From Asticcacaulis machinosus (GTDB lineage Bacteria; Pseudomonadota; Alphaproteobacteria; Caulobacterales; Caulobacteraceae): a DNA stretch of 64,000 nucleotides. The stretch's first letter is position 1. Every line of letters starts with the position of its first letter. Positions 50,448-54,335 of the stretch are shown here, piece by piece. The stretch covers positions 62,001 through 126,000 of the forward strand of contig NZ_JAQQKV010000001.1 in the NCBI RefSeq assembly GCF_028550435.1, in the 5' to 3' direction. The translations under genes were made by a program, and so were the position numbers. Under the pieces are notes generated by a model. That model made no database searches. It worked only from the letters and a program-made list of their open reading frames with translations, and had not been told where the DNA came from.

Positions 50448-51078
50448 TCCCCGAATCCGTCGTGGCCTTATGCTGATCGTGGTCGCACCCTCCGGGGCGG
50501 GTAAGACGTCTCTATGTCGTCGGCTTATGGCTGATCACGATGATCTGGATTTGTCGATTTCGGTGACGACGCGCGCCGCCCGACCGGGCGAGGAACACGG
50601 TCGCGACTATCACTTTATCGGCGATGCCCAAATGGATGAGCTTGTGGCCAACGATGCCTTGCTGGAAACGGCATCGGTGCATGAGTTCCGTTATGGAACG
50701 CCACGTGAGCCGGTCGAGAAGGCTTTGTCACAAGGTAAGAACGTTCTGTTCGATATCGACTGGCAGGGGGCGCAGCGTATTTCGGTTAAGGCGCCGTCGG
50801 ATGTGGTGCGGGTATTCATTTTGCCACCGTCAATGTCTGAGCTTAAGCGCCGGTTGGTAGCGCGGGCTCAGGATGGCATGGATGTGATTGAGCGCCGCCT
50901 AAGCCGCGCCAAGGGCGAGATCGCCCATTGGGCCGAATATGACTATGTCATTCTTAATGATGATTTTGACCGGTCTTATGCCGAACTGGCGCATATCTAT
51001 CACGCCGAAGCGGCGCGACGGTCGCGCGGTTTGTGGATTGCGCCGTTTGTCGATGAACTGATGAATGAGAGTTTATAA
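50437..51078 (+). CDS. gmk: Guanylate kinase
   Basis: A 213-residue enzyme that phosphorylates GMP to GDP. The P-loop is APSGAGKTSL near residue 17; TTRAARPGE and GRDYHFI form the GMP-binding part. The start ATG 50437 overlaps the yicC end by 11 bases. Its 3' end overlaps convergent ksgA by six bases. No extra domain. Confidence 0.95.
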   Translation: MLNNPRIRRGLMLIVVAPSGAGKTSLCRRLMADHDDLDLSISVTTRAARPGEEHGRDYHFIGDAQMDELVANDALLETASVHEFRYGTPREPVEKALSQGKNVLFDIDWQGAQRISVKAPSDVVRVFILPPSMSELKRRLVARAQDGMDVIERRLSRAKGEIAHWAEYDYVILNDDFDRSYAELAHIYHAEAARRSRGLWIAPFVDELMNESL

Positions 51079-51900
51079 CAGGCTGGCGAGTTTCAGAAAC
51101 CGGTCTGGCGAAACTGTCTCCGCCCGTGCGGTCGGATCAATGCCAGCCTTTTCCAGCAGGGCTTCGCCCCCCAGCGGTTTAAGTGACGCCCTGAGCATCT
51201 TGCGGCGTTGGCCAAAGGCGGCGGCGGTGATTTTTTCCAGATTTCTGATCAGGGCTGCATCCGGCCGGTTGGCCTTGGGCGTCATTTTAACCACAGCGCT
51301 GTCAACCTTTGGCGGCGGGGTAAAGGCGCGGGCGGGCAAGTCCATGATCTTTTCGCAGTCACACAGAACCTGCGCGATGACGCTCAGGCGGCCATAGTCA
51401 TTATCATTGACGGGGGCGACCACGCGCAGGGCGACTTCAAGCTGAAACATCAGGGTCATGCTGAGCGGCTGCCACGGCCCGGTCAGCCATTTGATCAGCA
51501 GCGGTGTGCCGACATTATAGGGCAGGTTGGAGACCAGATGGGCGGCCTCGCCAAGGCCGCGTTTGGCCAGTAAGGCGCGTTCATCGGCCTTGACCGCATC
51601 GGCTTCGATCACATCAAAGCGTGCGCCGTAGGCGTCATTGAGTTCGCTCAAAAGCTCAATAAAACGGGCGTCTTTTTCGATGGCCAGAACGGATCGGGCT
51701 CCACTTTCCAGCAGAGCGCGGGTCAAGCCGCCGGGGCCAGGGCCGACCTCAATCACTACGTCGCCGTCAAACGGCCCACCTAGACGTACGATTTTGCGCG
51801 TGACATTGAGATCAAGCAGGAAGTGCTGGCCAAAGCTCTTCTTGGCCATCAGTCCGTGCTGTTCAAGGCTTTCACGTAAGGTTGGTAGCTCAGGCGTCAT
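51073..51900 (-). CDS. rsmA: 16S rRNA (adenine1518/1519-N6)-dimethyltransferase
   Basis: A 275-residue methyltransferase (KsgA) that dimethylates two adenines at the end of 16S rRNA during 30S assembly. The SAM-binding segment VIEVGPGPGGLTRALL and the catalytic NLPYNVGTPLL are intact, as is the FGQHFLLDLN opening. Its start overlaps the pdxA end by 11 bases, so the two are cotranscribed, as in many proteobacteria. Confidence 0.96.
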   Translation of the reverse strand: MTPELPTLRESLEQHGLMAKKSFGQHFLLDLNVTRKIVRLGGPFDGDVVIEVGPGPGGLTRALLESGARSVLAIEKDARFIELLSELNDAYGARFDVIEADAVKADERALLAKRGLGEAAHLVSNLPYNVGTPLLIKWLTGPWQPLSMTLMFQLEVALRVVAPVNDNDYGRLSVIAQVLCDCEKIMDLPARAFTPPPKVDSAVVKMTPKANRPDAALIRNLEKITAAAFGQRRKMLRASLKPLGGEALLEKAGIDPTARAETVSPDRFLKLASLL

Positions 51901-52888
51901 GACGCTTCATACTCAAATCATGGGCCGCGTGGATCGCGGCAATCAGGCTGTCGGCTCGGGCGATGCCCTGTCCCGCAATCCCAAAGCCGGTGCCGTGGTC
52001 GGGCGAGGTACGCACAATCGGCAAACCCAGTGTAATATTGACACCGCCCCAGAAATCCAGCGTCTTCAGCGGGATCAGGCCCTGATCATGGTAAAGGCAA
52101 ATACAGGCGTCATAGGTCCCGCGCGCCTCATCATGGAACAAAGTATCGGCGGGGAAGGGGCCTTTGATATCAACGCCCTGCGCCTGTAAATCCGCGATTA
52201 CCGGCTTTAGCAGATCGATTTCTTCACGGCCGATGGTGCCATCTTCGCCGGCATGAGGGTTCAGGCCCGCCATGACCAGCCGTGGCGAGGGGATACCGAA
52301 ATCGCTTTTCAGGGCCTGATGGGTGACGTGCACTGTGTGAGCCAGATCATCGGCATTAAGACGGGCCTTAACCTGTGACAGCGGGATATGGATGGTGGCC
52401 AGCACAACCCGCAGGTCTTTGGCCGTCAGCATCATGATGGGGCCGCGCGCACCGTCGTAGGGGGCGGTGGCAGTCAGGTTCCCCAGATATTCCGTATGGC
52501 CTGGGAAGCTAAACCCCGTGGCATAGAGTACGGATTTGGCGATAGGGGCCGTAATCAGACCGCGCGCCTTACCTTCAAGGCAAAGCGTGACCGCCTCTTC
52601 GATCCAGCGCACAATATGCGGGCCGTGGAGGCTGTCGGGGTGGCCCGCAATGGCTGGCGCGGTCAAGGGCCGGTCAAGCACCGGCAGGCTGGCCGCAAAC
52701 ACCTTATGGGCCTCGGAAGCATCCCGAATCGCCGCAATATCAGCCCCGGCGGCCTTGAGCGCTTGCGCATTCCCTATCATGCAAAAACAAAGCTCAGGAA
52801 ACCGCTTTAAGGTGTCCCAAGCTTTGAGAATAATCTCAGGGCCGATACCGCACGGATCGCCCATAGTGATGACAAGCGGTTTGAGAAT
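51890..52888 (-). CDS. pdxA: 4-hydroxythreonine-4-phosphate dehydrogenase with probable non-AUG start
   Basis: An enzyme of pyridoxal phosphate synthesis that oxidises phosphohydroxythreonine using NAD. The first in-frame ATG is at 52864, but it falls within the conserved opening PLVITMGDPCGIGPEI and would remove the first beta strand. The frame is open upstream to a stop at 52901-52903. An AAAGGA site (52902-52897) lies eight bases before an in-frame ATT at 52888, giving (M)-L-K-P-L-V-I-T; an ATC at 52891 is the alternative. Metal-binding histidines and the YHDQGLIPLK segment are present. It is 19 bases after surA and overlaps rsmA. Confidence 0.85.
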   Translation of the reverse strand: MLKPLVITMGDPCGIGPEIILKAWDTLKRFPELCFCMIGNAQALKAAGADIAAIRDASEAHKVFAASLPVLDRPLTAPAIAGHPDSLHGPHIVRWIEEAVTLCLEGKARGLITAPIAKSVLYATGFSFPGHTEYLGNLTATAPYDGARGPIMMLTAKDLRVVLATIHIPLSQVKARLNADDLAHTVHVTHQALKSDFGIPSPRLVMAGLNPHAGEDGTIGREEIDLLKPVIADLQAQGVDIKGPFPADTLFHDEARGTYDACICLYHDQGLIPLKTLDFWGGVNITLGLPIVRTSPDHGTGFGIAGQGIARADSLIAAIHAAHDLSMKRHDA

Positions 52889-52902
52889 GATCCCAATCCT
52901 TT
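52886..52902 (-). promoter_or_regulatory. pdxA: Shine-Dalgarno and probable ATT start of pdxA
   Basis: AAAGGA on the minus strand at 52902-52897, then an eight-base spacer to ATT at 52888-52886. No ATG, GTG, TTG or CTG is in frame between the stop at 52903-52901 and ATG 52864, and no ribosome site precedes that ATG. An error in the sequence at this spot is the main alternative. Confidence 0.5.
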
Positions 52903-52907
52903 AAAGC

Positions 52908-54245
52908 TTATTTGTTCTCAATGGTCGCCTGATTGCGGACATCGCGCAGATAGCGGCGGCCCAACATCGACAGGCGCTGATTGACGAGGCGGTCTTCGAT
53001 CTGTTCCCGCGTCGGTGCGTTTTCACCCGCCAGGCGTTTGTCGCAGACCACCAGCACGTTCATATTGGCGTCATTACGCATGGGTGCGGTCATTTGCCCC
53101 ACTTCAAGGGGTTTAAGTGCCGCCGCATAGTCATCACGCAGTTCGCTTAAGGGAGATTCCCCAAGGTCGGTCACCACGACATTGCCGTCCAGTGTCGAAT
53201 CCGTCAGGGCACCACAGCCTTTTTGACTGTTACGGAAGGATTCCAGAGCCTTTTGCGCGGCCTCAACCCGTGAGGCCGGAGCGTCTGCACCCAGCGATAT
53301 AGCGGCCTGTTTCAGCGACATAACCGAGTCAGAATTACCATCGGTTTTTTCACGCAGATAATAGATATAGACCCCTTCGTCCGTCGTGATCGGCTGGGTC
53401 ATCTGACCGCCACTCATGGTTTGCAGGACGGTTTCGATCTTGGGGTCGATGGTGCCGGAAATCAGCCAACCGGCATCACCGCCATTGGCGGCAGACGGGG
53501 CGTTGGAAAATTGACGGGCCACCGATTGAAACGGCGCGGCGCCACTGGCGATCTGCTGGAACAGTTGCTGGGCACCCGCTTGGGTCTCAGCTAAACCACC
53601 AGCCAGATTGGGGTCGAGAAAGATTTCAGCGACCAGATATTGCGGTTTTTGACTATCGGCCGTGATCTTGGCCATATACGAATCGACCTGATCCTTACCG
53701 ACGCGGGCCTTGGAATTGAACCGACCGCCAACCAGGCGTTGCCAGCCGGTTTCGGCGCGGATCTGGTTGCGCAGGGTTTCCGGGTCTACGCCCGCCCGCT
53801 GTAGTTCGGCCACAAGCTGATCGTAGCTCAGGTTGCTCTGGGCGGCCATGCGGGTAATTTCTTCGGTGATTTCTTCTTCTTCGACCTTCAGTTCCCAGCG
53901 CTTGGCTTCCTGGAGTTCCAGACGCTCATCGATCAGGCTGCGCAGAGCCTGCTGCTGAAAAGCTTCGTAATTTTGTTCAGTGACCTGCACGCCGGAGGTC
54001 ACGATCAGCAGTAACATGCGCTGGCGAAGATCGTAGGATGATATCAGTTCATCATTAACGACAGCAATAATACCTTCGCGCAGGGCCGGACGCTGTGCCT
54101 GTGCCTGTGCTTGTGGTTGAGGGGCTGCCTGCGCTTCAGGTGCGGCCTGAGCCATGACAGACGGTGCCATCATGCCTATGAAAATACCCGTGCCCAGTCC
54201 CAGAACAGTCGTCTTTAACGTCATTTTTTTAAGGCTCTTATTCAT
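52908..54245 (-). CDS. surA: Periplasmic peptidyl-prolyl isomerase / chaperone (SurA-like)
   Basis: A 445-residue periplasmic chaperone that escorts outer-membrane proteins. I chose ATG 54245 (MNKSLKKM) because it gives a basic start and signal peptide ending VMAQAA; ATG 54272 is possible. A Q/A/P-rich stretch (PQPQAQAQAQ) follows. The SurA N-domain (EGIIAVVNDELISSYDLRQR) is at about 55-75, and one parvulin domain follows at about 205-300 (LVAEIFL...GDAGWLISG). The single parvulin domain is usual in alphaproteobacteria. It lies between lptD and pdxA. Confidence 0.9.
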   Translation of the reverse strand: MNKSLKKMTLKTTVLGLGTGIFIGMMAPSVMAQAAPEAQAAPQPQAQAQAQRPALREGIIAVVNDELISSYDLRQRMLLLIVTSGVQVTEQNYEAFQQQALRSLIDERLELQEAKRWELKVEEEEITEEITRMAAQSNLSYDQLVAELQRAGVDPETLRNQIRAETGWQRLVGGRFNSKARVGKDQVDSYMAKITADSQKPQYLVAEIFLDPNLAGGLAETQAGAQQLFQQIASGAAPFQSVARQFSNAPSAANGGDAGWLISGTIDPKIETVLQTMSGGQMTQPITTDEGVYIYYLREKTDGNSDSVMSLKQAAISLGADAPASRVEAAQKALESFRNSQKGCGALTDSTLDGNVVVTDLGESPLSELRDDYAAALKPLEVGQMTAPMRNDANMNVLVVCDKRLAGENAPTREQIEDRLVNQRLSMLGRRYLRDVRNQATIENK

Positions 54246-54335
54246 AAGGCAGGCAGATCCCGGACGGTGCATGAGCGCATCACATGCTTTGAGTGACCGA
54301 TAGCGCAGTTGGTTATGAATGTGAAGTCACGCCCA

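Follow-up and report, generated by a model that had tools for sequence, protein, structure and literature searches.

The pdxA reading frame and its start region

The pdxA gene of Asticcacaulis machinosus raises the question of where its translation begins, as ATG, GTG, TTG and CTG are all absent from its frame between an in-frame stop and an ATG that lies inside the conserved part of the gene. On the minus strand of the window (the whole stretch of 64,000 nt that was analysed) the codons of this frame read TAA (52903-52901), AGG, ATT, GGG, ATC (52891), ATT (52888), CTC, AAA, CCG, CTT, GTC, ATC, ACT, ATG (52864), GGC, GAT and CCG, which agrees with the preliminary description that no ordinary start codon precedes 52864. 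The identity of the product as PdxA, 4-hydroxythreonine-4-phosphate dehydrogenase, was given by the profiles TIGR00557 (NCBIfam; 391.1 bits vs. a cut-off of 290.35) and NF003699 (445.8 vs. 378). The CDS as proposed here occupies positions 51890-52888 of the minus strand, with 332 codons from the ATT at 52888 and a stop. Its neighbours on the same strand, which on gene order and sequence we take to be surA (upstream, 52908-54272) and rsmA/ksgA (downstream, 51073-51900), are close: the TAA of surA ends 19 nt before the ATT, and rsmA/ksgA overlaps the end of pdxA.

Two non-canonical codons are candidates for the start, ATT (AUU, 52886-52888) and ATC (AUC, 52889-52891), with the predicted N-termini M-LKPLVITMGDP and M-ILKPLVITMGDP, respectively. 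Upstream of both lies AAAGGA (52897-52902), a putative Shine-Dalgarno (SD) sequence that agrees over six consecutive bases with AAAGGAGGT, to which the anti-SD core is complementary. In the GGA register of this motif the ATT follows at 8 nt and the ATC at 5 nt, and the spacing described earlier was thereby confirmed. Neither an Rfam model nor a 3′-end pattern detected any 16S rRNA, and so no 3′ end, in the whole assembly (completeness given as 100); the anti-SD was therefore taken from Caulobacter crescentus, for which CACCUCCU is given in the accessible part of the source (PMC4117421). The 16S model search gave matches in 9 of 14 controls, Caulobacter vibrioides not among these, and either the search or the assemblies may be at fault. 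The internal ATG (52862-52864), codon 9 counted from the ATT, has no SD sequence, the longest run of matches being 3.

Distribution of the start arrangement

A pdxA match was present in each of the 25 Asticcacaulis genomes of the genus set. A script count of start codons, over the interval that opens at the preceding stop (no further back than 25 codons) and closes five codons before the GDP motif, gave ATG in 7 genomes, TTG or GTG in 13 and none of these in 5. The five without an ordinary start are all the members of a clade of five species (the window's genome, G013, G005, G020 and G017) with 90-93% pairwise PdxA identity, and none of the 20 other genomes of the genus shares this property. 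At the pdxA start the clade species have TTTAAAGGATTGRGATCATTCTCAAACCGCTTGT in common, in which only R, a G or an A, varies; AAAGGA, ATT, ATC and the TAA at 52901-52903 (minus strand) are all kept in 5/5. In a tree of 31 rows the clade had a support of 100/100. On this tree a single change, in the ancestor of the five species, accounts for the missing ordinary start; the relatives use ATG, TTG or GTG. At the position of the internal ATG the other 20 genomes carry a Leu codon.

A reading of 95 of 96 loci (all but L075; some species are present as both named and unnamed copies), which took in the clade and extended beyond the genus, revealed no further pdxA that lacks ATG, GTG and TTG before the first strand. 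The only rows without all three are seven, all from the five clade species, and the C. vibrioides locus (L046) has a GTG. Comparison with the pdxA of relatives had been proposed as a check, and the finding that the arrangement is common to a five-species clade, with the assemblies of G020 and G017 being single contigs, removes the reading as a base-call error.

Two further observations were made in the genus. In 13 of the 25 genomes (L006-L009, L011-L014, L016-L019 and L021) pdxA has a TTG or GTG and no ATG before the first strand, and some of these starts directly follow or overlap the surA stop; pdxA in Asticcacaulis may thus have had weak and coupled starts for a long time. In one genome (L025 and L026, G003:C4:710402-711378) the pdxA match falls into two overlapping pieces, by a frameshift or an assembly error.

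Selection and the protein N-terminus

The frame is intact, with 332 codons from the ATT, in all five clade species, and dN/dS is 0.09-0.15 at dS of 0.27-0.62 (332 codons, ten pairs). Among these codons 180 vary between the five species, 58 of them with a change of amino acid, and the eight codons from ATT to ACT hold two changes, both synonymous. In the profile alignments the fourth residue from the ATT falls on position 1 of TIGR00557 and the second on position 4 of NF003699; among 22 aligned PdxA sequences the conservation of P4 and of L5 is 90% or more. These results bear out the earlier statement that the residues after the ATT fit the start of the PdxA family. A product begun at the internal ATG would miss the first 5 (TIGR00557) and 10 (NF003699) model positions; it still scores above the cut-offs (382.5 vs. 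290.35 and 435.5 vs. 378 bits).

An AlphaFold2 model was built from 22 sequences; the best model had a mean pLDDT of 86.5 (the other four averaged 72-74), with 93 and 95 in the N-terminal blocks. Strand beta-1 is predicted at residues 5-8 from the ATT and the internal ATG corresponds to residue 9, which is in line with the preliminary description, where initiation at 52864 was said to cost the first beta strand. Of 15 hits against solved structures of PdxA, 13 start between residues 2 and 6, counted from the ATT. As the window's genome has a single copy of pdxA and also contains pdxJ, PdxA is probably needed, and weak expression would therefore have to suffice. Purifying selection, together with family-matching residues ahead of the internal ATG, makes a truncated start unlikely. 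The main claim made for this locus, that pdxA starts at a non-AUG codon (ATT or ATC), is thus supported by clade conservation, the family N-terminus and SD spacing, and from these comparisons we consider it likely that translation of pdxA in the clade begins at a non-canonical codon, AUU 52888 or, with less probability, AUC 52891.

infC of the same genomes and the choice between AUU and AUC

In all 25 genomes of the genus an ATT, followed by CGT CGC or CGT CGT, stands at the infC start position, after a GGAG SD sequence (own-genome site L101 1468-1470, on G000:C2; the others at L116-L139). Its spacing, measured in the SD register used for pdxA, is 9 nt in 24/25 and 8 nt in 1/25. In 12 of the 25, including the window's genome, infC has no in-frame ATG, GTG, TTG or CTG before the DGPR motif. 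An in-frame ATG follows the ATT in 8/25 genomes, and a GTG, TTG or CTG lies upstream of it in 5/25, one of which belongs to the clade (G017). The conservation argues for an infC start at ATT throughout the genus. The classical IF3 AUU start thus looks fixed in Asticcacaulis.

For comparison we took the longest-frame starts of the window ORFs of at least 150 aa (n=51). An SD run of at least 5 was found in 7 of these, with spacings of 2, 7, 8, 9, 10, 10 and 11 nt, and since only 7/51 have such a run, SD spacing can guide the choice of a start only weakly in this lineage. In our judgement AUU 52888 is nonetheless clearly to be preferred over AUC 52891, because its spacing of 8 nt matches both that of the infC ATT (8-9 nt) and the SD spacings of the window.

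Alternative readings

Within the confidence given to a non-canonical start, a minor share goes to AUC 52891, or to the use of both codons. AUC is as invariant as AUU (5/5) and also a near-cognate codon, but its distance of 5 nt from AAAGGA departs from the 8-9 nt of infC and from the 7-11 nt of six of the seven window ORFs whose SD is clear (2 nt in the remaining one). Initiation at the internal ATG with a functional truncated enzyme would use the first ordinary start codon, which occurs in all five species and gives a product above the family cut-offs. We regard it as improbable, as it would delete the modelled strand beta-1 and has no SD; moreover, the codons before it fit the family and change only synonymously, and the other 20 genomes have a Leu codon in its place. 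Conservation of the start region could also come from a DNA operator, the palindrome TTGAGA-TCAT-TCTCAA, bound by a transcription factor and not from translation. With at most 2 mismatches this palindrome occurs 13 times in the genome, twice within pdxA, compared to 1 for a reversed-pattern control. Nine of the occurrences have 2 mismatches; the two outside pdxA that have 1, to which inspection was confined, sit in ORFs and not in promoters, and an operator appears quite improbable as the explanation.

It is very improbable that ribosomes enter pdxA from surA, be it through readthrough of the stop, a frameshift or a fusion, or that they start at the TTG at 52896, which is out of frame. The end of surA is just 19 nt upstream and the TTG (52896-52894) comes after the SD, but the surA-pdxA distance varies by one base within the clade, so that the two genes do not keep a constant relative frame, the in-frame TAA is retained in 5/5, and the TTG, besides being out of frame, is too close to AAAGGA (0 nt). 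For a sequencing error or a dead gene the missing ordinary start is the only point in favour. Given the agreement of five species genomes (two of them single contigs), dN/dS of 0.09-0.15 and the intact 332-codon frame in 5/5, we attach practically no weight to it.

The base-call error, the dead gene, the internal ATG (by profile, model and SD), the surA fusion or frameshift and the out-of-frame TTG were rejected.

Predicted hairpin, conserved block and repeated sequence

The start region is predicted to fold into a hairpin, GGAUUGRGAUCAUUCUCAAACC (52878-52899, minus strand), with the loop UCAU, in 5/5 species. The stem takes in the GG of the SD, and AUU begins in the loop, with its first two bases unpaired. 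The single variable pair of the hairpin (R) remains paired as G-U or A-U. Compensatory changes were found in 0 of 49 predicted pairs of a 160-nt consensus of the five species; covariation of the hairpin is not demonstrable because these species hardly differ there. When compared with shuffles, the 34-nt start region was equalled by 5/200 (window version) or 1/200 (GAG version), and the 161-nt region by 9/200. Folding at least as stable as -8.1 kcal/mol was found at 5 of the 51 window ORF starts, and hairpin stability alone is therefore not exceptional. A stem over the start would be a hindrance to initiation rather than a help.

The segment from the tail of surA to about codon 25 of pdxA is the most conserved stretch of 51110-54050 at lengths of 90, 120 or 150 nt; at 60 nt the best-conserved place falls inside surA. 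A codon scan over surA (its last 370 codons) and pdxA gave 7 variable codons in 40, compared to 20.7 expected. The shuffle p values were 0.13, 0.01, 0.001 and 0.003 for 20, 30, 40 and 50 codons, and these are generous, as the shuffle ignores uneven constraint on the protein sequence. The one observation that points to coupling of surA and pdxA is their closeness, the 19 nt from the surA TAA to the ATT. Masking the bases covered by a ribosome stopped on surA left the computed pairing of AUU unchanged and gave no support for coupling.

We also observed that GRGATYATTCTCAAA is present twice, in or at the start of pdxA, 57 bases apart. The first copy lies at 52880-52894 and the second, GAGATTATTCTCAAA, at 52823-52837 (minus strand). 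The two match at 13 of 15 bases in the window and at 14 of 15 in three relatives with GAG; the window as a whole contains 4 pairs of 15-mers at most 100 nt apart with no more than 1 mismatch. It is suggestive only that a small duplication may have created a new pdxA N-terminus and displaced the old start codon.

Proposed mechanism and significance

With AUU as the preferred start, AAAGGA located 8 nt upstream would position the ribosome at 52888. By analogy with E. coli infC, initiation there would be inefficient and sensitive to IF3. Ribosomes terminating on surA, 19 nt upstream, would sit on the SD or close to it; they could assist in unfolding the hairpin and reinitiate, and the outcome would be that PdxA is kept low yet coupled to surA. 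Regulation of pdxA by IF3 is plausible, since infC has the conserved ATT at its start position in 25/25 genomes of the genus. The more extended proposal is a tentative one, to which we give a low probability: that pdxA may be a second IF3-controlled AUU gene in Asticcacaulis, in which surA-terminating ribosomes would open the hairpin (GG in the stem, AUU in the loop), so that vitamin B6 synthesis would be linked with translation capacity as well as with the upstream envelope genes.

AUU-started bacterial genes are already known, and few are documented in the literature examined; new is a probable start of this type in pdxA, a core metabolic gene, with conservation across species. A gene caller limited to ATG, GTG and TTG would trim the first beta strand clade-wide. 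As infC of the clade genomes is also apparently started at AUU, these offer a natural test of IF3 levels on a second gene, with the 20 relatives that have ordinary starts as built-in controls.

Comparison with known systems

Caulobacter crescentus belongs to the same family as Asticcacaulis, Caulobacteraceae, and 0.25% of its mapped CDSs are stated to start with other near-cognate codons (PMC4117421); AUU, pdxA and infC do not occur in the main text of that paper. Among titles and abstract openings of open-licence PMC text, we found no report of a non-AUG pdxA start or of Asticcacaulis start codons. In Staphylococcus aureus, conserved non-canonical starts, AUU in cvfC1 and AUA in ccpN, are described as positioned by a strong SD, and in poor medium the activity of AUU and AUA reporters was about 10% of that obtained with AUG, according to the portion of the source available (PMC13009471). 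SD pairing is extended in cvfC1 and ccpN, whereas that of pdxA comprises six bases, two of them in the stem.

A metabolic parallel is pncA (BBE22) of Borrelia burgdorferi, where an AUU start restores a conserved N-terminus that is lost with a later start, and this start is said, in the text accessible to us, to have been established by genetic and biochemical work together with a crystal structure (PMC13398362). Both genes encode metabolic enzymes, and for pdxA the AUU start is proposed from sequence comparison. The E. coli genes named with AUU are infC and pcnB, and in E. coli the AUU start of the IF3 gene is discriminated against by IF3 itself, as stated in the available part of the source (PMC9410913). 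The Asticcacaulis pdxA resembles infC in having ATT at the presumed start with a similar SD spacing (8-9 nt for infC). Unlike infC, it is a metabolic gene in a cluster after surA, has a predicted hairpin over its start, and shows AUU in one clade of the genus only. Binns and Masters reportedly found in 2002 that E. coli pcnB, outside infC, is limited by its AUU start. Both pcnB and pdxA would thus be AUU genes other than infC, differing in gene, organism and context.
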